Origin: Tritrichomonas foetus
Taxonomy: Eukaryota > Parabasalia > Tritrichomonadida > Tritrichomonadidae
Assembly (NCBI GenBank): GCA_001839685.1
Contig: MLAK01000704.1
Coordinates: forward strand, 190,600 to 254,599
Reading direction: 5' to 3'
Length of the DNA stretch: 64,000 nucleotides
Numbering within the stretch: position 1 is the first letter of the stretch; each line of letters starts with the position of its first letter. The translations under genes and the position numbers were made by a program. The notes under the pieces were generated by a model. The model was not told the DNA's origin. It ran no database searches and saw only the letters and a program-made list of their open reading frames with translations. Shown piece after piece: positions 5,463 through 60,380 of the stretch.

Positions 5463-8234
5463 ATGGAAATTAACTTTCAGCCACGATGTCCAATTGAAAC
5501 CAAAGTTCTATTAATCAATCAAGGTAAAGAATATGAAATTAACAAAAGGATTGGTGTACTTTGCTCCAAGGTAATTGCTGACTTCTATAAAGATGAGAAA
5601 AATAATTCTCATCCAATTTTCTTGAATATTGATGATAAAAAACTAATTTTTGAAAACATTGCATCTTATTTATCTGGAAAAACCATTACTATCACACCAT
5701 ATAATATGGAAGAAATTGAATATATTGCATATATTCTAAAAATACAGAATTTGCTTGATGCTGTTGAAAAGCTAAACAATAATATAAAAAAAGTCGCCCA
5801 ATTCAAAGAACAATATGAAATAAAAATGCTTCTAAGCATTGAATTATTATTATTTTCAATTAACTCTGACACAAATATTAATGAAATGACTCATAATTTA
5901 TTAATGATTCTTCATTTTACTGAAGAGAAAGATTTTTCAATTTTTTTTGGATTCATTTTTAACCTTGTCAGAGCCCGTGTCAAATACATGGACAAAATTC
6001 TGGAGATGCTTTCCACATTGAATCACATGTTAATAAATAACTATAAAATAACCACATTAATGCCAAATCTCAGAATTTCAATAATGAAAAAGCTATCACT
6101 CAAAGGTCCAATATATGATTACAAAAAAGAATGGGGTGAATCTATATATACAAATGAATTCTTTTACTTTATGTATAGGCTAATTGAGAAAAAAGTAATA
6201 TTAGTAGATGATATTCTTTTTAATCGAAGTCATTATATTTATTTTGCCCATCTTTATTTGAAAAATGATACATCATCTTTTGATTCAATGATTAAAAACA
6301 TGGACAACAGAATTAAAGATTATCATTCACATTTCAAAATTGTTCAAAATGAGTTACCAAAGCATACTTATCGGAATTTGCATCGACATGCTATGAAAGG
6401 TAAGAATCTGGATATATTTGCTCAATTTATTCAAGAAGACAATGTTAATGCTGTGATAGAGATGTGTAATTCGAACGAAAATAATTCTTTGAAAGATATT
6501 TATTTCACATATTTGTATGATACACTTTCATATAAACAAAATTCAACTCCACTTGAATATGCAGCAGGACACTCGGCAATAAAATGTTTTAGATTTTTTT
6601 TATTAAATAATTTCCCCTATTCAGAGGATTTTTTACCCATTTTTGCAGTGATTGGTGGTAATTGGGAAATTATACAATTATGTAAACAAAAGGGCTGTGA
6701 GTTTAAAGATTGTTTAAAATATTCAATTTATTATCATCGGTATGAAATTACCGATTGGATAGTTTCGAATTATTATGATAGTATATACCCAAGAATGGAT
6801 TCATGTATTGGTTTTTGGAACATTCATTATTTTGTTGATTCTCTTGAATATGATTGTGACTTGAAATATGAATCACTTATTAATGAGTCAATTATTCATG
6901 ATAATATTTTACTGCTTAGTTTTATTTCAAATCAACTACAGTCTAAATCGAATCTCACCATTCAAGAAAGACTATTGAACAATGTTTCCATAGAGACTCT
7001 AAAATTTTCCATCAATCATCATCTGTTTGATAAGACAGTACTTTTGCCGAACGTTGTTCAGAACGGAAATCTAGAATTATTCAAATGTTTAGAACAGCAA
7101 TTTGAAAGAAACGATTTCGAAGAAATTGTTTCATCTTTAGTCTGCTGGAATAATGTAGCGATGATAAAATATTTCATCAAAGAATATCAACATCAATATT
7201 CAGAAGAAAATGTAAAAAAAATACTGATCCATGCGATTCAAAATAGAAATATAGAGATTGTTAAGTATTTCCTTAAATCAGAATATCTTGAAGATGGTGA
7301 ACTATTATATAAAGCTGCATATTGCAATAGTTTAAACATAGTTAAGCTTTTGATGGAATCAATAACAATTCAAAACCAATTTAAATCACCATTTTATGAC
7401 AGCATACCGATAATTGTAACTGCTGCTCATATTGGAAATCGAGAATTAATCAAATATTTCGTTAACCACCCGAATGTAGATATTAATAAAACAACAAAAG
7501 ATGGAATCTCACTTATCACAGAATTAATAATCAAAGGAAGACATGATCTGATAGAATATATCTGGAAGAATAAGAAAATTCATTTCAATAATTATAAATA
7601 TCATACTTCTCCAGAAAATCATCCATTAATTGCTGCTGTGCTAAGAAATGATGTAAAAGTTATACGCCTTTTAGTTTCGCATCCCGATATTGACTTAAAT
7701 ATGGTTTGTTGGAGAGGGACATATTGTGGTTATTCTGCCCTACATATCGCTTGTCTCAAAGGTTTTTATGATATATCAACAATTTTATTAAAGAATAAAA
7801 AAGTGAAAATTACAAACGAGAAGATAAGTGGCAATTCATTATTGCATTTAGCATGCATTTCCAAAAATATACATGTCATTAGCCTTATTTTAAACCTATC
7901 AAAATTTGATTGTACAATGCAAAATAAAAGGGGGGATACTGCACTTCATCTCGCTTTGGATCTGGATATTGCTATTATAAAAATGTTACTTGATAGTAAA
8001 AAAATGAATGTAAATCTACGAAATGAACAAAAATATACACCATTGGATCTAGCAATTCTCAAAGATGATATGGATATTGTAAAGCTATTGATAGACTCGG
8101 GTGAAATTGATCTATCATTAGAGATAGAAAATGTTGGAATGATCGCTAATGGAAAATCGGTATTTCCGATGGTAAATAGATTGTTATCAGAATATTCAAA
8201 TCTTAAAAATGAGGAAATTGACAATAGGATTTAG
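5463..8234 (+). CDS. BTB-like / DUF3447 / ankyrin-repeat protein (923 aa)
   Basis: This is a trichomonad-type ankyrin protein. The frame is open from a TTG at 5409, but the first ATG (5463) begins the recognisable domain. Residues about 5-100 look like a BTB/POZ-like fold (CPIETKVLLINQGKEYEINK..., then IFENIASYLSGKTI). A helical linker follows, then a DUF3447-like stretch at about 355-445 (TPLEYAAGHSAIKCFRFFLLNN, GGNWEIIQLCKQKGCEF). Degenerate ankyrin repeats continue from about residue 570, with clearer ones at about 715-890 (for example YSALHIACLKGFYDISTILLKN and DTALHLALDLDIAIIKMLLDS). Such proteins are scaffolds or adaptors; no enzymatic domain is present. No signal peptide or transmembrane segment is seen. 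It belongs to a large paralogous family in trichomonads, so no specific function can be assigned. Confidence 0.9.
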   Translation: MEINFQPRCPIETKVLLINQGKEYEINKRIGVLCSKVIADFYKDEKNNSHPIFLNIDDKKLIFENIASYLSGKTITITPYNMEEIEYIAYILKIQNLLDAVEKLNNNIKKVAQFKEQYEIKMLLSIELLLFSINSDTNINEMTHNLLMILHFTEEKDFSIFFGFIFNLVRARVKYMDKILEMLSTLNHMLINNYKITTLMPNLRISIMKKLSLKGPIYDYKKEWGESIYTNEFFYFMYRLIEKKVILVDDILFNRSHYIYFAHLYLKNDTSSFDSMIKNMDNRIKDYHSHFKIVQNELPKHTYRNLHRHAMKGKNLDIFAQFIQEDNVNAVIEMCNSNENNSLKDIYFTYLYDTLSYKQNSTPLEYAAGHSAIKCFRFFLLNNFPYSEDFLPIFAVIGGNWEIIQLCKQKGCEFKDCLKYSIYYHRYEITDWIVSNYYDSIYPRMDSCIGFWNIHYFVDSLEYDCDLKYESLINESIIHDNILLLSFISNQLQSKSNLTIQERLLNNVSIETLKFSINHHLFDKTVLLPNVVQNGNLELFKCLEQQFERNDFEEIVSSLVCWNNVAMIKYFIKEYQHQYSEENVKKILIHAIQNRNIEIVKYFLKSEYLEDGELLYKAAYCNSLNIVKLLMESITIQNQFKSPFYDSIPIIVTAAHIGNRELIKYFVNHPNVDINKTTKDGISLITELIIKGRHDLIEYIWKNKKIHFNNYKYHTSPENHPLIAAVLRNDVKVIRLLVSHPDIDLNMVCWRGTYCGYSALHIACLKGFYDISTILLKNKKVKITNEKISGNSLLHLACISKNIHVISLILNLSKFDCTMQNKRGDTALHLALDLDIAIIKMLLDSKKMNVNLRNEQKYTPLDLAILKDDMDIVKLLIDSGEIDLSLEIENVGMIANGKSVFPMVNRLLSEYSNLKNEEIDNRI

Positions 8235-35632: not shown

Positions 35633-37030
35633 ATGTTGATTGGGAAATATAGAATCTCCCGAGTGATCGGTGATGGATCATTTTCAACAGTTAAATTAGG
35701 TTTTCATATTTTTACAAATGAACCTGTCGCAGTGAAAATTATCTCTAAATCTACATTAACTGAACAATCACAAATCGATCAGCTTCATGAAAGAATAGCT
35801 ATAATTCAACGATTCGATCATCCTGGTATCATTAAGTTGATAGAAGTGATTGAAGATGAAACTACATTTTATGTAGTATTAGAATATTGTGGTGGTGGCG
35901 AGTTGTTTGATTTCATCATTGCTAGAAAACGTGTTGAAGAGCCATTAGCAAAACGATTTTTTAAACAAATAGTTCTTGCTGTTGGATATTGTCATTCACA
36001 AAATGTTATTCATCGAGATTTAAAACCAGAGAATTTACTTTTAACAGAAAATAATACTGTAAAATTAATAGATTTTGGTCTGTGTAATACCCAAGCAGAT
36101 CAGCCACTTCATGATCGTTGTGGATCAGCATGTTATATTGCTCCAGAAGCATTGACAACAACCCAATATTATGGAATACCTGCTGATATTTGGTCACTTG
36201 GTGTTATTTTATATGCACTTGTAGATGGATCACTTCCATGGAACTATCAAGATCCAAATCAAATGTTTCAACAAATCACAACCGGATCGTTTCCAATGCC
36301 AACTGGAATAACTCCACAATGTCAAGATATTCTTCGTGGAATGTTAAACCCAGACGCTTCTCAAAGATTCAATATTGATGCAATTTTGATGCATCCTTGG
36401 CTTTTTGGCGTTGGTAATGTTTTTCCTTTGCCAAAACCTAAAGTTCAACAAACTAAAGAACCACATTTAAATCTAAGTCTTGGTGGATTCTCTGCTTCGA
36501 ATATTCATACCGATTTTCTTCAAAACTCATCACAGCAGCAACCGCAACAACCACAAATGAATGTCACCTGTTCACTTGAAACAATTTTTGAAGATAATTC
36601 AATTCAACAACTCCTCCATCATCCAATACAGAAACCTACACATGATAAAGTAGAAGTTCGAACATCCCGGTCGAAGCCAATTCAACCACGTTCAATTTCA
36701 CTTGATGCTGCAACAATGACAGAAGAAAACGATGGAGAACCGACAAATACTCATCATGGGCCAATTATGTCGCAAACAATCAGTCATCGAGATCCAACTA
36801 TAGTTGCCCAGCGTCTGGAAAATGTTTTAATAGAAATGGGACTAAATTATAGAAAGAGCAGTCCTTTAATGTTTCATATATCTGGACCAGAAATCCAAAT
36901 ATCAGCAGAAGTTTGTAGATTATATGGATTTAGAAATGTTTATGTTGTTGCTTTCAAAAGAATTCAAGGAGAAAGTTGGGGATATACGCAATTTGTCTCT
37001 TCAATTCTTAATGTTTTTAAAGATCAATAA
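35633..37030 (+). CDS. CAMKL (SNF1/MARK-like) protein kinase with KA1 domain (465 aa)
   Basis: Serine/threonine kinase of the AMPK/SNF1/MARK superfamily. The kinase domain spans about residues 5-256, with a Gly loop GDGSFSTV (13-20), ATP-binding Lys in VAVKII (K35), catalytic loop HRDLKPENLLL (from about 127), DFGLCN, a T-loop GSACYIAPE and DIWSLGVILYALVDGSLPW. All catalytic residues are present. A Gln/Pro-rich linker follows. The last 70 residues (from about RLENVLIEMGLNYRKSS to SILNVFK) match a KA1 domain, which binds acidic phospholipids or autoinhibits MARK/KIN1-type kinases. Such kinases control polarity, microtubules or energy status. The neighbouring gene is divergent and apparently unrelated. 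Confidence 0.95.
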   Translation: MLIGKYRISRVIGDGSFSTVKLGFHIFTNEPVAVKIISKSTLTEQSQIDQLHERIAIIQRFDHPGIIKLIEVIEDETTFYVVLEYCGGGELFDFIIARKRVEEPLAKRFFKQIVLAVGYCHSQNVIHRDLKPENLLLTENNTVKLIDFGLCNTQADQPLHDRCGSACYIAPEALTTTQYYGIPADIWSLGVILYALVDGSLPWNYQDPNQMFQQITTGSFPMPTGITPQCQDILRGMLNPDASQRFNIDAILMHPWLFGVGNVFPLPKPKVQQTKEPHLNLSLGGFSASNIHTDFLQNSSQQQPQQPQMNVTCSLETIFEDNSIQQLLHHPIQKPTHDKVEVRTSRSKPIQPRSISLDAATMTEENDGEPTNTHHGPIMSQTISHRDPTIVAQRLENVLIEMGLNYRKSSPLMFHISGPEIQISAEVCRLYGFRNVYVVAFKRIQGESWGYTQFVSSILNVFKDQ

Positions 37031-41129: not shown

Positions 41130-41933
41130 ATGAATTCTCCCAATTTCCCTTATCCTTTGGAGAAATCATCTCGCCGCCAACAATCTACATCAGAAAAAAC
41201 TCAAGTTCCCGAAAAAAAAGTTCAGAAAAGTACAAATTTACAATCACACCAAAATTTACAAAGACGCCAAACTCAAAGAATCGAAGCTGATCAAGAATCA
41301 AACAATCCTGCGCAAACATATCCGCAAGTTCCTTATCCAAATTTCCAGCCAAATTTCGGTTTTCCATATCAATATCCATATTATTATTCTGCTCCGTACT
41401 CCACGCATGCAAATTCAGGCCTTTCTCTGAATTATACACGAGAAAAAATGTCGAATACCACTCAAAATTACGGAAATAAAGAACAAAACGATGATATTGA
41501 ATATCATGAATTTGATGAGGAAGAAGAAGAAGAAGAAGACTTAAATGAAATTTTATCAGAAATTGATAACGAAATATCAATGGTTAATTCTCATTTGTCT
41601 GTTCTTTATCAGCGTAGATTGAATATTTTATCAAGAATTGATCCAAACTTGACTCAAAAGTATGGCTACCCGTATGATTATGAATTTGATCCTTATTACT
41701 ACTATTATGGTGGATATGGAAATGGAGAAGCAGAAAATGATTCTGATGATTATGATTATGAAGAAGATGAAGAAATTGCTCAGAGTAGTGAAAATGTGAC
41801 ATCAAAGAGTCCACAAGGTGGATTTTCACCTGGAAAAGCGCCGGCAAAGCCAGCAGCAAAGAAACAGCAAGGAAAACAGACAACTTGTTATCGAGGCTCG
41901 CCCAAGAATTATTGGAATCAGTATCTTTATTAG
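41130..41933 (+). CDS. Hypothetical acidic, Tyr-rich low-complexity protein (267 aa)
   Basis: I do not recognise a family. The N-terminal half is Gln/Pro/Ser-rich, followed by an aromatic stretch (NFGFPYQYPYYYSAPYST), an acidic block (FDEEEEEEEDLNEIL), a short helical segment (EIDNEISMVNSHLSVLYQRRLNILSRID), a Tyr/Asp-rich block, and a basic C-terminus (GKAPAKPAAKKQQGKQTT). The middle helix is the only part that looks structured and could be a short coiled coil. The start is the first ATG. The composition suggests a disordered protein, perhaps RNA-associated, but that is conjecture. Confidence 0.7.
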   Translation: MNSPNFPYPLEKSSRRQQSTSEKTQVPEKKVQKSTNLQSHQNLQRRQTQRIEADQESNNPAQTYPQVPYPNFQPNFGFPYQYPYYYSAPYSTHANSGLSLNYTREKMSNTTQNYGNKEQNDDIEYHEFDEEEEEEEDLNEILSEIDNEISMVNSHLSVLYQRRLNILSRIDPNLTQKYGYPYDYEFDPYYYYYGGYGNGEAENDSDDYDYEEDEEIAQSSENVTSKSPQGGFSPGKAPAKPAAKKQQGKQTTCYRGSPKNYWNQYLY

Positions 41934-42155
41934 GTAGGAAGCTAATGCGTATTAACGTGCATTAAACCCTGTATTTTATACAAAAAAGGAAAGAAAAAAT
42001 GAATTTGTAAAAATTAATTTTGTTTTGTTCCTTTATCAATCTATTCATTTTCTATTTACAGACAAATTGGAAATTATCTTCAGAATAAACCAAAGTATAA
42101 GATGAATTTGAAGACAAAAGGAACCAAAGATATAGATGACAAAATGTGAAAAAAG

Positions 42156-42179
42156 AAAAATTTCTCCGACGCGGGGAGT
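42156..42179. repeat. Target-site duplication, left copy (24 bp)
   Basis: This 24-bp sequence is repeated exactly at 48599-48622. It corresponds to the terminal part of the tRNA-Glu gene (from inside the B box to the discriminator) plus the AAATTTTT that follows it. Here it is followed on the plus strand by the element's 3' end and not by the rest of the tRNA, so it is the truncated copy. Confidence 0.95.
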
Positions 42180-42294
42180 TTACTAATATCATAAGAGTAG
42201 GAGAAGGTAGAGGGCGTCATCATCATAAATCCACCTACCCGGAGACGACTAAAAGTCAAAAAGAATAAAGTATTGTTATTTGATGTGTTTCACA
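42180..42294 (-). other. 3' UTR of the retrotransposon
   Basis: About 115 nt between the ORF2 stop and the 3' junction. In R2-type elements the 3' UTR RNA is folded and recognised by the RT. Here a GGTAG/CTACC pair bracketing about 25 nt can form a stem, preceded by a GACTTTTAGTC inverted repeat. There is no A-rich tail; the end reads GATATTAGTAA directly into the duplicated target. Confidence 0.6.
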
Positions 42295-45200
42295 TCACAT
42301 GTCGTTTAGACCATCATATTCAGAAGCAGATNTCGAGAAATGAATAAGTCCCTCCCCCAAGGGACTGACATCACCAACGACATCATGATTGGTCTGGTCT
42401 GTCGCAAACTGCGAGTCGGTAAAGAGAGTGTCATCCGGGTCAATCACCTGGTCATCACTGGAGTTNACTTCATTATCACCCAAGTTTGCTGAGCCATTGG
42501 CATCAATTTCACCTGCATTCATCCGAATATTCCAATATATTAAAGCACTTCCTCGGATTGCAGCAAGTGAAATCTTCCTTGCAGTGGCCTCAGCAAGTCT
42601 TTTATTATTAAACAGCAATTTTCTGAGCGAAACGAGAGTTGAGGAAGGGACTGCGCCAAGTGAACTGACAACAATGACATAGAGATTGACTTTGATGTTA
42701 ATAGCATCTTCAACAGCTTTTACTAAAGGTAAGTATTTTTGCAGCTTTTCCTCCATACGCAGCTTTAAAGTCGATTGGGGATCACAATCTGTTCTGTCAT
42801 CCATCTGTCCATAAGGAACAGTGACCTCCACAATGTTCAACACGCCATTAGCAGGATTAACAAACCAAAGGTCTGGTCTGAGGTTTCGAACGCTAGGAGG
42901 AAGCTGTGGAGCACCCCTGAGTGAGATCGTAGTATTTTCATGAAATACAAACTGAATTCGAGAAGCCTTCTTTAGAGATGCCATAACTTCTTGCACTACC
43001 TTGTTGTGTCGAATTGTATACTTCGATTTCTTTGGGTCACAATTATTAAGTCTGTGAGCAAGAGTATCTTTAAGTTGTTTGTTGCATAGTCTGCACTCGG
43101 GAGTTTCATTATTATGTGAGATTACCTCACCAGTGGGGAGATTGTTACATCTGGCAGCAATAGTAAAAGATAACAAGTTGTCATTAACATTCGGAGGGCT
43201 CGGAGAGAAGTAAAAATTGCTAATCTTGTTGTTGTAGAGTGTAGTGAATGTATGGCCTTTCATCTTCATTGACACCAGCTTGGAGTGCCAGCGTTTGTAA
43301 AGGATCTGCACAATTTTTCGCATCACACATTTTGAATGTACAGTAAATTTCTCTTTGTTATCCGCGTTGGAAATAATTATATCTCCATCTTCACTAATAT
43401 GCAGCTCTAAGCGAAGTTTTCGTGTTGCCTTAAAAGCTCTGATGAAAATACAATCTGTTCCGTTATGGGATTGATCCAGCGAGCCATCCGATTTAACCTT
43501 CCAGTCAAGGAACGTGGAAACATCGTCATCATCTGCCTTGGCAATGTTGCGAAGCCTCTCCTCCTCTTCCAACCATATTGAGAAAAGTTGTTTTGTATGG
43601 TTATCAGTGGACGTTAAGACTTCACCGCACTGCTTAAGCCGAAATGCGTAGAGACGTTCATGTAGAGATTGAATGCCAAGTCCCCCATCCCTCCAAGAAG
43701 TGTGAAAGAAGGGTATAGGAGTGGATAACTGTTTGATATGTTTGTTTACCAGAGAACGAATGAGTTTATCGAGTTTGATCATGTCATTCGCTCTAAATGA
43801 ATTTGTCAGCATCTCGAAGTCCATAGAAGGAATGACAAATCTTTTCAGAGCGTCAACCTTTTGATTTATTCGAAGAGGCGACTTAAAAATTAAGTTGATC
43901 TTGTTGGTCAACTCCTCGACCAACCTGTCAGTATGTAAGAGGTTAACGACATGTGATCTCGCAATCGGAGCGCCAAGGTATTCCTTGAACTCATTTATGT
44001 CAATGTGAGGAATCTCCTCATCATGAATTGAGAAAGGGAAAGCAGAACGTACTCTGCTCCGATTCTGTCGAATATAAGAAGTAATAGCGCATTTACTTGG
44101 ATTAACACCAATACAAGAGAAGCCTGAGAACTCTGAAACAACATCCAGCAAGCGTTGTAATCCCTCTTCCGAATTACTGAGCAATACAATATCGTCTGCG
44201 TAAGCTTGGATGGCGGAATGGATTGTAGTAGTCGAGTTTGAGGTAATAATTCCATATCTAATTGATTTCTTCTTAACATATCTGACCAATGGCTCAATTG
44301 CGATATCAAACAAGATCGGCGACAACGGACAACCTTGCTTGACACCTCGCCGTATCCTGATAGGTTTTGTACGACCACGATGTGTAGAAATCACCGAATC
44401 CGTGCCCTTATAGAAATCCTTAATGATTGTAACAATCGCATTGTCGAATCCCATCTGTTGCATCGTCGAAAAGATTAGACGATGGTTGATTGAGCCGAAA
44501 GCATTTGAAAGATCAAGTGTAGCTGCAAGGAAATCTTGCCCTGAACGATAACAATGCCTCATTAGTTCATTAACTGCAGCAGTGTGATTAAAGCATCCAT
44601 TGACAAGATGCCTGAACCCTTTTTGCTCAGGTGAAATATATGTACAGCGATCATTGAGCTTCTGGAAACATTGTGCGATATGGGACATGACAGTCCTGTA
44701 AATCACCGATGTGACAGTAATCGGTCTCCAATTATTAATCTTTGAAGAATCATTCTTCTTGAACAAGAGAATGGTCTTATTGTGCTTCCAGTTATCTGGT
44801 GTTCTCTTTGTACATTTAATTGCTTTCAACAAGATAAGTATGAATTTCACAGCGTGTTTTGGTTCCAGAGAAAGAACAGCATTTGAAAGAGCATCCGATC
44901 CATGTGACGAGGCTGGATTTCTATCTTGAACAATCTTCATGATCTCCTTCTCATCAATAAAGTCGATCCAGAATTGTTTCATATCCTCCTCATCGATGAT
45001 GCGATCCAGATGCCATACTGAGTCATGATCAGCTTCTTGAAATTGTGGAGAAAATGACCAATCGTTAGTGAAATGTTCTTCAACATTGCGAATGTCAATA
45101 TCGCAAAATGGATATGCATCTGGCCAAACGTATCTTTGCATAGCTTTACGGGGACTATCATCGTAAAGCTCTTGACATCTTTTAATTTCATGCTTTGTGA

Positions 45201-45435
45201 TCTTCTCACTTTTGAGGTTCATGAGGTGGTTAGCATAATCTGTGAGCCATTCAAGGGCCTTGGACCTCCACTCCTCCGATTGACTGACGAAACCTCTTAG
45301 TGTGTCAGGTGAATCACCGACTCCAAAGTGCCTCAAGATTTCATCATTGCAACTGCCAGCAACATGAATGATAATGTCCTCAAGTCGACCGAGTGAATTT
45401 CGAGTAGTCTCATTATCGGTGTTAGCCTTCAACAA
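42295..45435 (-). CDS. Retrotransposon ORF2: reverse transcriptase plus R2-type endonuclease (about 1046 aa)
   Basis: Reverse transcriptase of the R2 clade. Visible blocks are WRPITVTSVIYR, QKGF, motif A LDLSNAFGSI, motif B GVKQGCPLSPILFDIAIEPL, and catalytic YADDIVLL at about residues 405-412. A thumb region and a long linker follow. A CCHC knuckle (C-x2-C-x9-H-x4-C; ECRLCNKQ...HRLNNC) precedes the nuclease block RPDLWF...NIVEVTVPYG...EEKLQKYLPL, which matches the restriction-like endonuclease of R2/CRE/NeSL elements. An acidic tail ends the protein. The first codon is TTG and the first ATG lies about 70 codons in, so independent initiation is doubtful. The frame overlaps ORF1 by 7 nt and fusion with ORF1 is likely. 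Ambiguous bases at 42332 and 42466 affect single codons in the acidic tail. Confidence 0.95.
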   Translation of the reverse strand: MLKANTDNETTRNSLGRLEDIIIHVAGSCNDEILRHFGVGDSPDTLRGFVSQSEEWRSKALEWLTDYANHLMNLKSEKITKHEIKRCQELYDDSPRKAMQRYVWPDAYPFCDIDIRNVEEHFTNDWSFSPQFQEADHDSVWHLDRIIDEEDMKQFWIDFIDEKEIMKIVQDRNPASSHGSDALSNAVLSLEPKHAVKFILILLKAIKCTKRTPDNWKHNKTILLFKKNDSSKINNWRPITVTSVIYRTVMSHIAQCFQKLNDRCTYISPEQKGFRHLVNGCFNHTAAVNELMRHCYRSGQDFLAATLDLSNAFGSINHRLIFSTMQQMGFDNAIVTIIKDFYKGTDSVISTHRGRTKPIRIRRGVKQGCPLSPILFDIAIEPLVRYVKKKSIRYGIITSNSTTTIHSAIQAYADDIVLLSNSEEGLQRLLDVVSEFSGFSCIGVNPSKCAITSYIRQNRSRVRSAFPFSIHDEEIPHIDINEFKEYLGAPIARSHVVNLLHTDRLVEELTNKINLIFKSPLRINQKVDALKRFVIPSMDFEMLTNSFRANDMIKLDKLIRSLVNKHIKQLSTPIPFFHTSWRDGGLGIQSLHERLYAFRLKQCGEVLTSTDNHTKQLFSIWLEEEERLRNIAKADDDDVSTFLDWKVKSDGSLDQSHNGTDCIFIRAFKATRKLRLELHISEDGDIIISNADNKEKFTVHSKCVMRKIVQILYKRWHSKLVSMKMKGHTFTTLYNNKISNFYFSPSPPNVNDNLLSFTIAARCNNLPTGEVISHNNETPECRLCNKQLKDTLAHRLNNCDPKKSKYTIRHNKVVQEVMASLKKASRIQFVFHENTTISLRGAPQLPPSVRNLRPDLWFVNPANGVLNIVEVTVPYGQMDDRTDCDPQSTLKLRMEEKLQKYLPLVKAVEDAINIKVNLYVIVVSSLGAVPSSTLVSLRKLLFNNKRLAEATARKISLAAIRGSALIYWNIRMNAGEIDANGSANLGDNEXNSSDDQVIDPDDTLFTDSQFATDQTNHDVVGDVSPLGEGLIHFSXSASEYDGLNDM

Positions 45436-48400
45436 GGAATNGGTTTGCCAATTGAATGTAAGGTATGTTTCGCTAAAATGTGTGTGGCTTTGAAGAGAGC
45501 ACCTTCAAATTGGAACCAGCAATCTTCCGTTTCATTGGAAGGAAAGTAACTTTCCAACAGCGGAATAATCTTGTTCTTGTACAAATCGCTTAACCCTTTC
45601 TTCACACGTGATCTAAACGCTTTGTTGAGATATGGAGTACTGATACCACTCTCTTCTAATATTTTATATTTCATCCTCCAACGAAGTGCCTTATTCCTTC
45701 TCTGTACCGCATCCCCAAGACGCGATGAAGCATCCGGACCAGCGTCATTAGTCCTAAGCACATCGGATTCATCTTCATCAAAAGATGGAGCGATCCCAGT
45801 TACATTTGATGATCTAGCTGAATCCGAGCGAAGGGAGACGTTATGAGTTCCTTCATTGTGATCTTCTTCACTACATATAGCTTCGTCATGTAACCTTTCA
45901 CCATCATCCGATACATCAGTACCCGGAGCGGAACGATGTTCTATCTCGCTTGCTTCTTGAGTTGCATCAATATCTTCATTGGTCACAATAAGATTCGATT
46001 GTATGACATAGGAGCCGAAGCCAGCCACCCTAGCATTGGAGTGGTCTGGGCGCGTGGACTGAGCGATATGAGAGGAAATTGCAGCCCTCGATGTCCGAAA
46101 GCAGTCGTTCTGTTTGCAACAGTATAATAATCTTTCTGCAGTAAAATTATGAATTCCAGGTGCATAATTATTGCTCCTGGCAATACCGATCAACTGCCCC
46201 CAAAACCATCCAAATTTGGTAGTCAGGGATGAGTTGCTGCGATGGACGTTGGTAATGTGGTTGCGTAAGCTCTCTCCGTCTTCGAACAATGCACCACAAT
46301 CTCTCTCCATGCAAAAGAATGGGATGAGTTTGATGTTATTACATTTAAACACTAATTTCGTCTCAAGAATAGCGTTTAGAATGCTGATTTGTGGGTTGAT
46401 GTTCCTATTGTCATGCTTCTCCAAAATATGTGTCTTCCTTTTAGCGGCAGTATTGACAGAGCAAAAGCAGTTTGCATGCGGACATGCAAATTTACCTCCA
46501 AAAACATAGTTTCTTGTTTTATACATCCCCATAAGAAGGTCATCATCTTCATTGAGAGATGTGTCAATTATATCTTCTTCGATCCAAGTGTGAATTAGGC
46601 TGTTAAGCTCTTCAACAGAATTCACAGAGCTGAGCTGTGAATAAATCTTCTGTTTGAGTTGGGTCTGGTTATCCTCTTGGGAGGGCTCACTATCATCAGG
46701 GGGTAAAGGATTAGGAGGAGATCCATCCTCGCTTGACCCTGACGGGGAGTTGGGATTGGAACGAAATGAATTGTCATCTGAACCATGCACATTGTGGGAG
46801 ACGATGATACCATCAGAAGTTTGTGTGGAATGCTGTTCATTATGTGAACAAATAGGAACTTGCGGATTAGACACATTAGTGACACAGGAACAGAGCATGT
46901 TCTCCTGGGGGGCATAGCTCAGCATGCAGTTGCTGTCACAGTTCACTTTGTTATTAAGATGTGGAGTAGATATTGGATGTTGAGATTGATTTAGAAGAGT
47001 CTGGACTGTTTGTGAAAGAGTAAAGAAACAGTTCTCAATAACACGATTTTGAAAGTTTAATTGGTTGAGGATGATGTCGTTAAACTCTGATCGTAGTCGA
47101 GTGCTTACATCATCCATAGCTTTATTACATGTTAGCCGATGATCTAGAACACTGTTGCACCCGACATGAGCAATATGGTTCTGCTGAGTAACCAAATGAT
47201 TAAGATTGTGTTCCATCACCTGGGAAAACATATAATGCATTGATTGGATTTGTGCGTTTTGGTTGTCAATTATTGACAACATATGATTTATCTGTTGATT
47301 AAGTTCACATTTATTGCTTTCATTCATTTGCTGATTTTGGTAAAGAAGTAAAAGCATTAACATGTTCTGTTGATCATAACATTGTAGTTTCTGTTGAAAT
47401 TCATCATGAATCTTTTGAAGAGCACTGTTTGCAGAAGTATTTCGATTATGTGGAAAAGGATTGAGTGAATCATCCTCATCAAGAGGAAACTCGACTATAG
47501 GTAATGTTCCAGAAGTTGGGTGAATATCCTCATTCTTAATCTCCGGAGAATCGTCAACTGGAGTATTTGAACTAGTCACTGAACTGATATTGTTCGAAGT
47601 AGTATTGACTGGAACGATATCATCATTCGAATTATCATTAGTCTCTTCAATGATTTTAGATGTAACAGTTTGTGATGAATTAGTAAAATCTATTGATAAA
47701 ATTTGTTTATCTTTACAAAATGAATTTGAATTATTAATATTATTATTGATTTCAGAATTTTCAATATCATTTGTATTAAAATCTGTAACATAAATAGACC
47801 TACTTGGATTACAGTTCTCTATGGGGGGAAGAGAAGTAGAATTTGTAGGTGGTAAAAAAACATTAAATGAAATATCTTTCTGGTTGTCACTATTCTCTAA
47901 GTCATCATGTGTAGCATCATTTGAGATATTAAGGAGTCGAGAAGTAATGTCTAGTGAGCATAGACCAGAGGAACAGGAATCATCATTCGTGAATATCATA
48001 TCATTAGGGAGATCTGAGTCAAATTGAGAGACAAAACTATCCGTAATATTGAATGCAATTATGGCCGCACCGCTATCTGATTCAGCTTCATCAGTACTAT
48101 CTAAACCCATATCTTTTTCGTCCAAAAATAAGAGACCATCGTAATTAATATCATCGATATCGCAGTCTCTTAAGAAAAGCCCAGTATCTCTGTTAATTTT
48201 AAAGTTCCCGGCCCAATGTTGAATCTCGAGATATATATCAGTGGGTGAAAGTCGCGGATTTTCGATGATATTGTACTCCATGTTGTTGAAAATTCGGTCT
48301 TGGAAGTAATTTGGCGGACTTAGAAGGCTGTCGGACGATTGCGAATCTGCATCAACTGAAAAACTGGGAAGCGAATGTAGTTTAGTTTGAACGCTCGGTG

Positions 48401-48572
48401 TAATAGATAGATTAGGTGACAGCGAGTCTGAGAATAGTTGTATTTGTTCTGAAGTGTGAGATGTCTCGTATGATATTGGAGATTCGATTGAAAAAATATC
48501 ACGAAATTCGGTGAGAATAGCATCATTAGAAAGCTTGTCTGGAGTAGATTCAGAATATGTAGGTATATCCAT
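45429..48572 (-). CDS. Retrotransposon ORF1: zinc-finger DNA-binding protein (about 1047 aa)
   Basis: First reading frame of the element. The frame is open from a TTG at 48590, but the first ATG (48572) gives MDIPTYSES. About 690 residues of acidic, Ser/Asn-rich, probably disordered sequence come first, with a Gln/Asn/His-rich helical stretch in the middle. Three C2H2 zinc fingers follow: FACPHANCFCS...HILEKH (near 46490-46415), FFCMERDCGAL...HITNVH (near 46315-46240) and LLYCCKQNDCFRTS...SSHIAQS (near 46135-46055). After another acidic linker, a basic helical block (RRNKALRWRMKYKILEESG) could be the Myb-like or RT-proximal domain. In R2 elements the fingers and Myb domain bind the target DNA, so these are the likely determinants of tRNA targeting. 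Confidence 0.88.
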   Translation of the reverse strand: MDIPTYSESTPDKLSNDAILTEFRDIFSIESPISYETSHTSEQIQLFSDSLSPNLSITPSVQTKLHSLPSFSVDADSQSSDSLLSPPNYFQDRIFNNMEYNIIENPRLSPTDIYLEIQHWAGNFKINRDTGLFLRDCDIDDINYDGLLFLDEKDMGLDSTDEAESDSGAAIIAFNITDSFVSQFDSDLPNDMIFTNDDSCSSGLCSLDITSRLLNISNDATHDDLENSDNQKDISFNVFLPPTNSTSLPPIENCNPSRSIYVTDFNTNDIENSEINNNINNSNSFCKDKQILSIDFTNSSQTVTSKIIEETNDNSNDDIVPVNTTSNNISSVTSSNTPVDDSPEIKNEDIHPTSGTLPIVEFPLDEDDSLNPFPHNRNTSANSALQKIHDEFQQKLQCYDQQNMLMLLLLYQNQQMNESNKCELNQQINHMLSIIDNQNAQIQSMHYMFSQVMEHNLNHLVTQQNHIAHVGCNSVLDHRLTCNKAMDDVSTRLRSEFNDIILNQLNFQNRVIENCFFTLSQTVQTLLNQSQHPISTPHLNNKVNCDSNCMLSYAPQENMLCSCVTNVSNPQVPICSHNEQHSTQTSDGIIVSHNVHGSDDNSFRSNPNSPSGSSEDGSPPNPLPPDDSEPSQEDNQTQLKQKIYSQLSSVNSVEELNSLIHTWIEEDIIDTSLNEDDDLLMGMYKTRNYVFGGKFACPHANCFCSVNTAAKRKTHILEKHDNRNINPQISILNAILETKLVFKCNNIKLIPFFCMERDCGALFEDGESLRNHITNVHRSNSSLTTKFGWFWGQLIGIARSNNYAPGIHNFTAERLLYCCKQNDCFRTSRAAISSHIAQSTRPDHSNARVAGFGSYVIQSNLIVTNEDIDATQEASEIEHRSAPGTDVSDDGERLHDEAICSEEDHNEGTHNVSLRSDSARSSNVTGIAPSFDEDESDVLRTNDAGPDASSRLGDAVQRRNKALRWRMKYKILEESGISTPYLNKAFRSRVKKGLSDLYKNKIIPLLESYFPSNETEDCWFQFEGALFKATHILAKHTLHSIGKXIPC

Positions 48573-48595
48573 GTAAAAAGGCTCCTGCAAAAAAA

Positions 48596-48604
48596 CGAAA
48601 AAAT
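48596..48604 (-). terminator. Pol III T-run terminator of tRNA-Glu
   Basis: On the minus strand, three A's after the discriminator base lead into six T's. A second run of seven T's occurs a few bases into the retrotransposon leader (around 48588-48595). In the truncated left copy, the corresponding terminator continues as TTTTTCTTTTTT, which is presumably the original downstream sequence. Confidence 0.75.
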
Positions 48605-48622
48605 TTCTCCGACGCGGGGAGT
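48599..48622. repeat. Target-site duplication, right copy (24 bp)
   Basis: An exact match to 42156-42179. Here it continues into the rest of the intact tRNA-Glu gene. Its boundary lies in the T-run downstream of the tRNA, so the element's 5' end abuts the Pol III terminator. Confidence 0.95.
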
Positions 48623-48678
48623 CGAACCCCGCTCCCGTGGATGAAAACCACGTATCCTAACCGATGAACGACGTCGGA
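48607..48678 (-). tRNA. tRNA-Glu (anticodon UUC)
   Basis: A complete 72-nt tRNA. The acceptor stem TCCGACG pairs perfectly with CGTCGGA and the discriminator is G. The anticodon stem CGTGG/CCACG carries the loop TTTTCAT with anticodon TTC (plus positions 48643-48645). The T arm CGGGG/CCCCG is closed around TTCGACT. The A box is GTTCATCGGTTAGG and the B box GGTTCGACTCC (48618-48628). No intron is present. The minus-strand sequence after the gene is AAATTTTTT, a Pol III terminator, after which the retrotransposon begins. The gene should be functional despite the insertion. Confidence 0.97.
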
Positions 48679-48893
48679 ACTTGAAAGAGAATTCTGTATG
48701 TTTTATTTATTAAAAAAAGTTTGTTTTTCCCACTCATTTTTGTGGCCAGTTATCATATGAAAAAGTTAACATGTCGAAAATGTTTTTCTTTTTTATCATG
48801 ATGACATCAAATCCTGATGTGTTTTTTTGATAGTTATCTAAAAGTTAAATATTACTACAAATTTTTAAAAAAAACTATGATTTTCGATTTTTT

Positions 48894-49304
48894 TTAATAT
48901 CTGATCAATTTTCCTCTTTCATCATATGACTCCCGGCCACCAATTCTAGGGCCTTTATATGCATTGAATGATCGATTGACTACAGTTTTCATTCCACGGA
49001 AACTGCAATTACCTTTTGTCATGATTGCGTTTGCTCGATCGGCTTCGAAATAGAATCTAATAAAGCAAAATGTTGTTCTTCCTTTATGAACGATGTTGCA
49101 ACTCTTTGGATTAAATTCTTTAAAGAATTTCAAGACTTGGTGTTTTTTCGTATTAAAAGGGATCAGTCCCATCCATGCTGTTAACCGTCGGCTCATTTCA
49201 AGTTCACTATTTGGAACGCCCGGATAGTTTCCTGTTTTGAGTCGACGAGGTCTTCTCCGATTTTTCTTCCGTTCATTCGATCCTGGCGTGTTTCTGTCAG
49301 ACAT
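48894..49304 (-). CDS. Small RRM-like RNA-binding protein (136 aa)
   Basis: A short protein with a basic N-terminus (NERKKNRRRPRRLKTG) followed by one RRM-like fold at about residues 42-115. An RNP2-like strand (AWMGLIPFN) and an RNP1-like strand (TTFCFIRFYF) are visible, but the canonical aromatic pattern (KGFGFVxF) is only partly kept. The C-terminus FNAYKGPRIGGRESYDERGKL resembles the tail after RRMs of small nuclear or cap-binding proteins such as CBP20, so a nuclear RNA-binding role is plausible; the exact family is unsure. The start is an ATG. Upstream on the minus strand, TTAAAACG occurs about 10-17 bp before it. The tRNA-Glu gene lies downstream. Confidence 0.8.
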   Translation of the reverse strand: MSDRNTPGSNERKKNRRRPRRLKTGNYPGVPNSELEMSRRLTAWMGLIPFNTKKHQVLKFFKEFNPKSCNIVHKGRTTFCFIRFYFEADRANAIMTKGNCSFRGMKTVVNRSFNAYKGPRIGGRESYDERGKLIRY

Positions 49305-58940: not shown

Positions 58941-60380
58941 TCACGATTCGGGGACAAAATCCTTCAGGAAAGTTTTTTCTGCAATCAATGTAAACACAGA
59001 AGAAAACAAAACCGCAATAAGAACAGAGAACGAAGTGAAGTTTGCACCAAGTTCTTTTTCTTTTGGATCAAGTTTGTCATCATTCAAAAGCATATGGTAA
59101 GTATTGACATAACTAAGCCCACCGACAGAACCGACGAAGAAAATACAGACAAATTCTGCCCAGAGAGGCATCCAGTGAAGCATTGCCTGAGATAGCCAAA
59201 TTCCAAAGTTTGCACATTGTAGGAAAGACATGAATTCTAAATAAGGGAATTTGAAAAAGTGCAAAGATGAACAAAATATTAAAACACCAATATGTTGAAC
59301 TAATGAAAGTAGAGGAAATAGGTATTTATACTTTTCTTGGATTTCTTCAGTTTGTGCACAATCAATAAAAGCTGAAGCAATAACGTATTGGCAAAAATAT
59401 ACAGTATCACATGTCCAAATATAACGAAAGATTTTCTTAATGAGATGAAAATTACAACAATGTATTTTTCTTTCGGTTGATTTTATCAAATTCTCATTTT
59501 CAGGAGTTGTTGCATTTTCTGTAAGATGAACAGAATTTGTAGATTGGAGTAATGGTGTTGTTGAAGTATCATGAAAAGACTCATTAAGTGATTCATTAAT
59601 TGGTTCTTGAATAGAATCTGCAGTAAAAATTGATGAATTAGAATTTTTCGATTGTCTGATTCTCAAAATACAAAAATAAGAGCAAGCATATATAACAATC
59701 AAAGGTGTAAGACAATAGAAAGAAAGTCGATAATCAAAATCCAATTTGATACAAAGTGCAGAATACCCTCCACCGAGAACACCAGCTGTTGCTGTTCCAA
59801 TTGACCAAAATTTCACCAACGATTGTTTTTTGATGTGTGCAAAATAACCTAAAGAAACAGATTCACCAAAATCGCATGGAAAGCCAACAAACACAATCGA
59901 TATGCATGCAACCCAAAAGTTGGGTGCAATGGCGCATCCAAGAAGGCCAATGGCCATAAAAAAGGTATTTGATGCATATCGCCAGTCATACGATATATTT
60001 CGTGATGACAAAAATGCATTGATCGATGATGCGAATAATGAACAAATTGTACTCGACCAATTTACTGCAGCTATGTAGCCTGACGCTTCAAAGTGAAGAA
60101 CAATTCTCTGCGCACTGGATGAAACGATTAAAAAAAATAAATTATTGATAAGACCAATTAAAACTGCTGCAATTTTGTCAATGATTCTAGTAGGTGTTTC
60201 TTCATCATTAACCTGCTCCTCAATTTTTACGGGTACATCTTTATGAAGATCTTCCATCCATATAACAATTCTATATTTATTTGGTCGGTTGTAACGATCC
60301 AAGGATTCGCGAGTTTTGAATTCATGAAAATGATGAGATCTAACGAAACATATAGTTGTCAATGAGAACTTGTCATTCAT
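58941..60380 (-). CDS. CLN3: CLN3/battenin-family membrane transporter (438-479 aa)
   Basis: A polytopic MFS-fold membrane protein of the CLN3 (battenin/Btn1) family, a lysosomal or vacuolar transporter-like protein linked in other organisms to lysosome homeostasis. About eleven hydrophobic segments are visible. Diagnostic stretches are FVGFPCDFGESVSLGYF, FWSIGTATAGVLGGGYSAL, DTVYFCQYVIASAF and especially FVGSVGGLSYVNTYHMLL, which matches the family signature G-G-x-x-YVNT(F/Y)H. A long hydrophilic loop (about residues 245-310) separates the two halves. The first ATG (60380) adds 41 residues with no family likeness. Met-42 (60257, MEDLHKDVP) would give 438 residues, the length of human CLN3, and is the more likely start. 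Confidence 0.92.
   Translation of the reverse strand: MNDKFSLTTICFVRSHHFHEFKTRESLDRYNRPNKYRIVIWMEDLHKDVPVKIEEQVNDEETPTRIIDKIAAVLIGLINNLFFLIVSSSAQRIVLHFEASGYIAAVNWSSTICSLFASSINAFLSSRNISYDWRYASNTFFMAIGLLGCAIAPNFWVACISIVFVGFPCDFGESVSLGYFAHIKKQSLVKFWSIGTATAGVLGGGYSALCIKLDFDYRLSFYCLTPLIVIYACSYFCILRIRQSKNSNSSIFTADSIQEPINESLNESFHDTSTTPLLQSTNSVHLTENATTPENENLIKSTERKIHCCNFHLIKKIFRYIWTCDTVYFCQYVIASAFIDCAQTEEIQEKYKYLFPLLSLVQHIGVLIFCSSLHFFKFPYLEFMSFLQCANFGIWLSQAMLHWMPLWAEFVCIFFVGSVGGLSYVNTYHMLLNDDKLDPKEKELGANFTSFSVLIAVLFSSVFTLIAEKTFLKDFVPES

Follow-up and report, generated by a model that had tools for sequence, protein, structure and literature searches.

Loose preferences for Pol III genes are known from the yeast Ty elements and from the Dictyostelium TREs, which encode an APE endonuclease and insert near, not in, tRNA genes. 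Confinement to a single tRNA gene is reported for non-LTR retrotransposons that encode a restriction-like endonuclease (RLE). Kojima and Jurka (2015, PMC4640811) describe NeSL-1_TV as specific for tRNA-Pro, with its clade placement left unresolved, and LIN25_SM and LIN15_SM of planaria, both of the R5/LIN lineage of flatworms, as specific for tRNA-Glu and tRNA-Arg, respectively. R2 combines zinc fingers, reverse transcriptase (RT), CCHC knuckle and RLE in one ORF, targets 28S rRNA and has an HDV-like ribozyme at its 5' end. NeSL and Utopia, both of the NeSL clade, pair an RLE with N-terminal zinc fingers and target spliced-leader or U2 snRNA genes, the nematode NeSL members also carrying a Ulp1 protease.

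Here we analyse a 64,000-nucleotide stretch of the Tritrichomonas foetus genome (the window), which holds an RLE-encoding element, termed family A, at a tRNA-Glu gene. Family A shares confinement to one tRNA gene with NeSL-1_TV, LIN15_SM and LIN25_SM, and by published description it resembles NeSL-1_TV as a tRNA gene-specific RLE non-LTR element. An earlier, sequence-only reading of the window took this combination as one not known to be described, which the reports of NeSL-1_TV (tRNA-Pro) and LIN25_SM (tRNA-Glu) contradict. What is new relative to the published tRNA-specific RLE elements is that the window element belongs to a radiation of related elements: NeSL-1_TV is reported in PMC4640811 as one family with one isotype, whereas the T. 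foetus clade occupies eleven. A parallel in this respect is provided by the Dada DNA transposons: according to PMC8869645, families within one superfamily likewise target orthologous positions across numerous tRNA isotypes, although at sites around the A box and anticodon, unlike the T-loop site described below. We consider it very probable that the window element is the tRNA-Glu family within a clade of parabasalid non-LTR elements with an RLE, which insert in tRNA T-loops by target-primed reverse transcription.

Layout and class of the window element

The element lies on the minus strand (Table 1), as does its tRNA-Glu(TTC) target gene, which ARAGORN and Rfam found separately. Its coding capacity had been read as two separate ORFs. 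However, the C170, C308 and C681 copies have a single open frame of 2161 codons, and because the window copy has an N in place of 125 bases, its two ORFs correspond to one in those copies. The C170 copy is 6551 nt long.

Table 1. Features of the family A copy and its target gene, in window positions
Feature	Position	Strand	Basis or remark
Intact tRNA-Glu(TTC) gene, the target, on the 5' side of the element	48607..48678	-	ARAGORN; Rfam RF00005, 49.5 bits
Target duplication, 5'-side copy, (A)CTCCCCGCGTCGGAG; tRNA 3' part from T-loop to discriminator base	48607..48622	-	Repeat and copy comparison
Family A non-LTR retrotransposon, element proper	42180..48606	-	6427 nt here
Element 5' end AAATTTTTTCGTTTTTTT, including T-run	48589..48606	-	Identical in 7/7 copies
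N-terminal part of the coding sequence, starting at ATG; three C2H2-like motifs	45429..48572	-	ORF and regular expression
Single N	45442..45442	-	125 further bases there in C170, C308, C681 and C315
C-terminal coding part: RT, CCHC knuckle, RLE	42295..45435	-	Pfam RVT_1; R2 structures by phmmer; invariant residues
Target duplication, 3'-side copy; then the T-rich trailer of the target gene itself (from 42163 downwards)	42164..42179	-	

The domains first noticed from the sequence alone, namely C2H2 fingers, RT, CCHC knuckle and RLE, are all upheld. The upstream ORF contains three C2H2-like motifs as regular-expression matches, and a Pfam scan of it at E 0.1 returned no family. The RT domain is Pfam RVT_1 (1e-31), and in a 25-protein alignment the CCHC knuckle (C781, C784, H794, C799) and the RLE residues (R809 H810, D855, E870, K897, K900) are invariant. 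The best PDB matches of the family A protein by phmmer are R2 proteins. With a non-LTR type RT followed by a C-terminal CCHC and a PD-(D/E)xK-like nuclease, family A is an RLE-encoding non-LTR retrotransposon of the broad R2/NeSL/CRE group. No Ulp1 protease appeared in Pfam scans of the family A protein or of six proteins scanned further. When 41800-49000 was scanned with Rfam at E 1, a search that divergent ribozymes could escape, the tRNA alone matched.

In a quick tree rooted on one long L1 row, with three R2 proteins and no named NeSL or CRE reference, family A falls within a 45-row set (SH-aLRT 99) together with a T. vaginalis protein (P0044) and metagenome proteins. Under this single L1 root the set groups with animal NeSL-like proteins, two of them with Ulp1, and not with the R2 proteins; the three R2 rows hold together at 91 and the remaining rows at 88. 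Copies from the same tRNA cluster, with support of 100 each for Ile (3), Tyr (2) and Met (2). LIN25_SM and LIN15_SM are absent from this tree. The TV of NeSL-1_TV is, from its name, presumably Trichomonas vaginalis. Family A shares with R2 the zinc fingers, RT, CCHC knuckle and RLE in one ORF, but it lies outside the R2 rows (support 88), targets tRNA-Glu in 8/8 copies and not 28S rRNA, and gives no Rfam ribozyme match at its 5' end. The label 'R2-type' proposed for it is not supported in the narrow sense: its nearest rows are the animal NeSL-like ones (88), and it is by domains that it belongs to the RLE group. Nor is it NeSL sensu stricto, as it shares the RLE and N-terminal zinc fingers of NeSL and Utopia but has no Ulp1 by Pfam and a target other than the spliced leader.

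Searching genome contigs with an alignment recovered 12 loci, of which L105-L107, on three contigs of one metagenome-assembled genome (MAG), are close relatives and the other nine have 23-28% identity; a single-protein search of the same contigs found no relative, and neither kind of query found one among viral contigs. L105, a stray contig in this bacterial MAG, ends in ...AATAAACGAATTTA|CCACACGGGAGGAG, the 3' end of a tRNA-Asn joined at the same T-loop site. Rfam matches on L105-L107 were weak, below gathering scores, and are taken as chance.

Junctions of family A and of the wider clade

The exact 24-bp repeat noticed at the ends of the element is present as described (42156-42179 and 48599-48622). 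The 24-mer occurs 11 times in 63.7 Mb and the tRNA-Glu 22-mer 13 times, with 0 for either reversed control, so both counts are beyond chance. Its interpretation as a 24-bp target duplication requires correction. The sequence following the 5' tRNA, AAATTTTTTCGTTTTTTTGCAGG, is identical in the 7/7 family A copies with a 5' end present, while the 3' flanks of the eight copies differ (AAATTTTTC, AATCTTTT, AATTTTTTC, GATTTTTT and others); therefore only (A)CTCCCCGCGTCGGAG is certain as target duplication. The true duplication is 15-16 bp, from T-loop to discriminator base, and the remaining 8 bp of the repeat are element sequence.

All eight family A 3' ends (8/8) lie at one tRNA-Glu site, joined directly to it without a poly(A) tail, which shows site specificity for tRNA-Glu. 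The proposal of a tRNA-Glu specific RLE-type element in a parabasalid is thereby supported. At the 5' side an intact tRNA-Glu gene is followed by the constant element end in the 7/7 copies where this end is present; two of the seven upstream genes carry substitutions, which affect the acceptor stem in C170 and a single base of the 5' half in C756, so the genes left behind may not all be functional.

Across the T. foetus genome, 47 RT/RLE matches were merged by hand into 34 elements or fragments. At the end of 29 of these stands a same-strand tRNA 3' fragment whose first base lies in the T-loop; 24 such fragments match exactly over 12-20 nt and five have 1-2 mismatches. An opposite-strand control gave no matches with 0 or 1 mismatch and two with 2 mismatches. 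Eleven isotypes are represented: Glu, Ile, Tyr, Pro, Asp, Phe, Thr, Cys, Lys, Arg and Met. The Met fragments fit Met genes exactly over 12 nt only, with 2 mismatches over 16, and the fragments at C244 (Phe) and C481 (Arg) each differ from their tRNA at 2 bases. Four extra tRNA junctions (C508:18309, C930, C381 and C204:56703) have no match in the RT/RLE search; the interior of C381 is mostly N. The sequence-only reading had missed the other families of the clade, which occupy this position in ten isotypes besides Glu.

Each family lies on its tRNA's own strand and meets it at the 3' end in the T-loop, at about positions 58-60; on the 5' side an intact tRNA gene runs directly into the 5' end of the element itself, which carries a T-run. 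Where both sides are visible, the duplication up to the discriminator base is 14-16 bp. Such 5' junctions were read in six families (Glu 7, Ile 4, Tyr 2, Pro 2, Cys 1, Arg 1), and in every one the T-run begins at most 7 nt from the tRNA and could terminate Pol III transcription of the tRNA gene. Tandem arrays on C508 (three 3' junctions), C581, C582, C481 and C204 show repeated use of a single site; on C581 a near-identical copy lies between the tRNA and a decayed copy.

In C876, of the Met family, a recognisable element 3' end is followed by non-tRNA DNA, so that either specificity is not absolute or the locus has been rearranged. No element 3' end was recognised in C713, C355 or C235:13618, and C74 stops within the element. 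The tRNA-Lys(TTT) gene of C725 was rejected as an occupied site, as tblastn gave no ORF match in 3.5 kb. A shared 3' hairpin is unsupported, with folds significant in only 2/6 families and two of the six stretches overrunning into tRNA. Separately, C248, C494 and C668 have tRNA-Met genes at their ends, where the assembly seems to have broken at a repeat.

Rival readings and a model of insertion

The close identity of family A copies (99.2-100% in aligned pieces) would favour a rival reading in which a block of tRNA gene and element was copied by segmental duplication or gene conversion rather than by retrotransposition. However, 300-bp flanks upstream of eight tRNA-Glu loci and downstream of eight 3' junctions have no similarity at E 1e-3, therefore the insertions are independent, and trailers differ copy by copy. 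For family A we regard duplication as refuted, and accord it scarcely any credence. It is similarly very improbable that a tRNA-derived RNA fragment, acting as primer in place of a chromosomal nick, supplied the 3'-terminal 14-16 bp. Cleavage in the T-loop is known for 3' fragments of tRNA, and this is the very boundary seen at the junctions, but the junction fragment has no CCA after it, on which ground this origin is rejected, and the T-rich trailer that follows resembles that of unoccupied tRNA-Glu genes.

Family A might alternatively be a single tRNA-Glu specific element of known kind, like LIN25_SM and NeSL-1_TV, with unrelated neighbours whose tRNA junctions reflect a loose preference for Pol III genes. 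This is unlikely. That tRNA-targeting RLE elements are already published (PMC4640811) and that one copy, C876, is off target would agree with it; against this, junctions are base-exact inside the gene and vary by family, not by copy (8/8 Glu in family A; 4/4 Ile among the near-identical family B copies with a readable 3' end), which largely refutes a generic preference. Pfam also detected no APE-type endonuclease in six proteins, and with its junctions inside the tRNA gene family A differs in both respects from the Dictyostelium TREs.

In the favoured model of target-primed reverse transcription, the RLE would nick the template strand within the T-loop, and cDNA synthesis on the 3' end of the element RNA would start from the 3'-OH exposed there. 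The other strand would be cleaved where the tRNA ends, 14-16 nt further downstream. A second cut placed there would thereby keep the tRNA gene complete and give it a new terminator. The same gene would stay open to further insertion, producing tandem arrays with the newer element adjoining the tRNA. The cut position appears constant while tRNA identity shifts between families, and the best reading is that the choice of tRNA changed repeatedly within the clade. The N-terminal zinc-finger part would be the likeliest reader of tRNA identity. We hold it possible rather than probable that the clade as a whole has a fixed cut geometry (T-loop nick, second cut at the discriminator base) in which the isotype alone is re-specified, and that a site cannot be exhausted, since every insertion would leave a whole tRNA gene that has gained a terminator. 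Because the start of the element coincides with the tRNase Z cleavage site, this host enzyme acting on a read-through tRNA-element transcript would, on this tentative proposal, set the 5' end of the element RNA, replacing the ribozyme of R2.

Target choice and coexistence on tRNA genes

Site-specific RLE elements such as R2 serve as gene-insertion tools (PMC11331408). Related proteins directed to one homologous position in at least 11 sequence-divergent tRNA genes offer a natural comparison for the protein parts that choose the target. How many target-specific elements coexist on low-copy genes is a question raised for Utopia in PMC4640811. The T. foetus clade bears on it, as its insertions each leave a complete target gene, and in this way many elements may be able to use the same few essential genes while doing little damage.

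Site specificity and structure of the tRNA-Glu element

In a genome search covering 63.7 Mb in 1064 contigs, the last 241 bases of the window element match eight places, and the tRNA-Glu 3' end comes next in all of them. This bears out the tRNA-Glu specificity proposed in the sequence-only reading, which had suggested collecting the flanks of other copies: all eight lie at the same tRNA-Glu position. Upstream and downstream flanks of these copies (family A) share no similarity, and the near-identity of the pieces (99.2–100%) suggests a recent spread. The genome has 13 exact copies of the tRNA-Glu 3' end: seven belong to genes carrying the element, two stand at contig ends that stop just past them (C156, C504) and four have no element behind (C39, C71, C292, C928). 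Two of the seven upstream tRNA-Glu genes carry substitutions.

The exact 24-bp repeat first described as a target duplication is present, but only part of it is true duplication. Identical sequence follows the 5' tRNA in all seven family A copies with a 5' end, and at the 3' side the eight flanks differ; the certain duplication is therefore (A)CTCCCCGCGTCGGAG, 15–16 bp. The other 8 bp are the element's own T-rich 5' end, which resembles a trailer.

The previously described C2H2 fingers, reverse transcriptase (RT), CCHC knuckle and restriction-like endonuclease (RLE) were recovered. Three C2H2-like motifs lie in the upstream coding part, the RT gives a Pfam RVT_1 match (1e-31) with R2 proteins as its best solved-structure relatives, and the CCHC knuckle and RLE-like motif are invariant across a 25-protein alignment. 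A single open frame of 2161 codons joins both coding parts in the copies on C170, C308 and C681. The window copy has a single N in place of 125 bases present in the other copies, reflecting perhaps a gap in the assembly, perhaps a deletion. The 7806-codon frame nearby has low G+C and strong GC skew, and scanned as two pieces gave no Pfam match at E 0.001.

Features of the window element and its neighbourhood
Feature	Position in window	Strand	Remark
Non-LTR retrotransposon, family A	42180-48606	minus	directly behind tRNA-Glu(TTC)
Intact tRNA-Glu(TTC) gene	48607-48678	minus	ARAGORN; Rfam
Downstream coding part	42295-45435	minus	RT, then CCHC knuckle and RLE-like motif
Ankyrin-repeat protein gene	5463-8234		host neighbour
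7806-codon ORF	11854-35274	minus	
Protein kinase with KA1 domain	35633-37030		host neighbour
CLN3 family protein	58941-60380		host neighbour

Related elements across tRNA isotypes

A search of the genome with the RT/RLE protein, in which 44 of 52 candidates were scored, gave at least 47 matches, merged by hand into 34 elements or fragments, and 29 of these end in a same-strand tRNA 3' fragment. The fragment is exact over 12–20 nt in 24 cases and has one or two mismatches in five (C751, C481, C235, C508:20368, C244). Control scans of the opposite strand found nothing at up to one mismatch and two matches at two mismatches; same-strand scans gave a few unrelated matches with 2 mismatches (loci L019, L039, L040), so two-mismatch cases are weak on their own. 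The isotypes are Glu (8), Ile (6), Tyr (4), Met (3), Phe (2) and, once each, Pro, Asp, Thr, Cys, Lys and Arg. Additional junctions beyond the 29 are Tyr at C508:18309 and C930, and Pro at C381 and C204:56703. Among the remaining five, the contig stops inside the element on C74, no 3' end was recognised in C713, C355 and C235:13618, and on C876 non-tRNA DNA follows a Met-family 3' end, pointing to either an off-target insertion or a rearrangement.

The tRNA fragments begin at about positions 58–60 across families. The Glu junction reads TTCG|A|CTCC, the Ile one TTCGAG|TCCC and the Lys one TTCGA|GTCC; Tyr, Asp, Pro and Cys have TTCG|A|TTCC. In many, the shared A makes the junction ambiguous by 1 nt. 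The Phe element itself ends TTCAA, such that the start may lie anywhere in 54–58, and in Met the exact match is limited to the last 12 nt. The 5' side was examined in six families (seven junctions for Glu, four for Ile, two each for Tyr and Pro, one each for Cys and Arg); there the tRNA runs as far as the discriminator base, and the element's own T-run begins no more than 7 nt past it. The 3' ends of only two of six families fold clearly better than shuffles.

Three contigs (C248, C494, C668) start with a tRNA-Met gene at bases 16-88 that faces outward over the contig edge, which would fit an assembly break at a repeated element lying behind the gene. ARAGORN, run with the bacterial code, reads the tRNA-Ile anticodon as GAT at L031 883-956, L069, L070 and other loci; the eukaryotic anticodon is usually AAT.

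Phylogeny and relatives

A quick tree of 68 rows, using 48 of 120 listed relatives and rooted on one long L1 row, included 14 T. foetus rows, with Phe excluded as too short. All 14 fall in a 45-row set (support 99) that also includes T. vaginalis P0044 and further proteins, most of them metagenomic. Copies group by target (three Ile, two Tyr and two Met, support 100 in each case), and the T. foetus protein P0005 (TRFO_08113) is almost identical to family B, the tRNA-Ile family of near-identical copies. Thr pairs with P0003 (support 99) and Asp with P0034 (support 100), so these lineages may predate the species. At support 88, with the single L1 row as root, the 45-row set groups with animal NeSL-like rows (two of them carrying Ulp1) and not with R2; the element therefore falls outside R2 in the narrow sense, contrary to its initial labelling as R2-type, and NeSL is a possible placement. 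Weak PF15518 (L protein N-terminus) matches, below the curated cut-off, cover the nuclease region in L011 and L015 (families B and Tyr) and may mirror the common PD-(D/E)xK fold.

Three contigs of an uncultured Lachnospiraceae MAG (L105-L107) encode relatives 46–51% identical to the Tyr families and about 32–34% identical to families A, B and Met; most likely they are stray parabasalid DNA binned into a bacterial MAG. L105 terminates in CCACACGGGAGGAG followed by a T-run, and L106 and L107 stop short of any junction. In the T. foetus genome the 13-mer CCACACGGGAGGA matches 10 places exactly, or 13 with one mismatch allowed (8 for the reversed control at that setting), and all four places examined are tRNA-Asn(GTT). 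A lineage near the Tyr families thus uses tRNA-Asn at the same site.

Tandem arrays and a model for integration

Element-to-element junctions with only a tRNA fragment between them occur on C581, C582, C481 and C204, and C508 has three 3' junctions in succession. On C581 a near-identical family B copy lies upstream of a decayed copy, on the side where a tRNA would be expected; no tRNA shows there, the bases ahead of the match being N. Such an order would be expected if every insertion restored the tRNA gene and the following one entered beside it.

Target-primed reverse transcription by R2-type elements is established. The sites, strand, duplication, complete 5'-side tRNA gene and tandem arrays are observed here; on the R2 model, a first nick in the T-loop would prime cDNA synthesis, and a second cut would fall at the 3' end of the tRNA. 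More speculatively, tRNase Z might set the 5' end of the element RNA and the zinc fingers might choose the isotype.

The combination of features had initially been thought undescribed, but tRNA-specific elements are in print: specificity for tRNA-Pro is reported for NeSL-1_TV, for tRNA-Arg in LIN15_SM and for tRNA-Glu in LIN25_SM (PMC4640811). Dada DNA transposons are described as occupying orthologous positions in many tRNA genes (PMC8869645), and the paper on the genome of T. foetus KV-1 counts 101 LINEs and 377 tRNAs (PMC11415386). A search by title and abstract start, with subscription journals mostly outside its coverage, found no paper on a radiation over tRNA isotypes. The off-target C876 end, the substitutions in two of seven upstream tRNA-Glu genes and the limited folding of the 3' ends caution against over-reading this picture. 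The single element is a new member of an already known kind; what is new beyond that is the T-loop radiation with restored targets.
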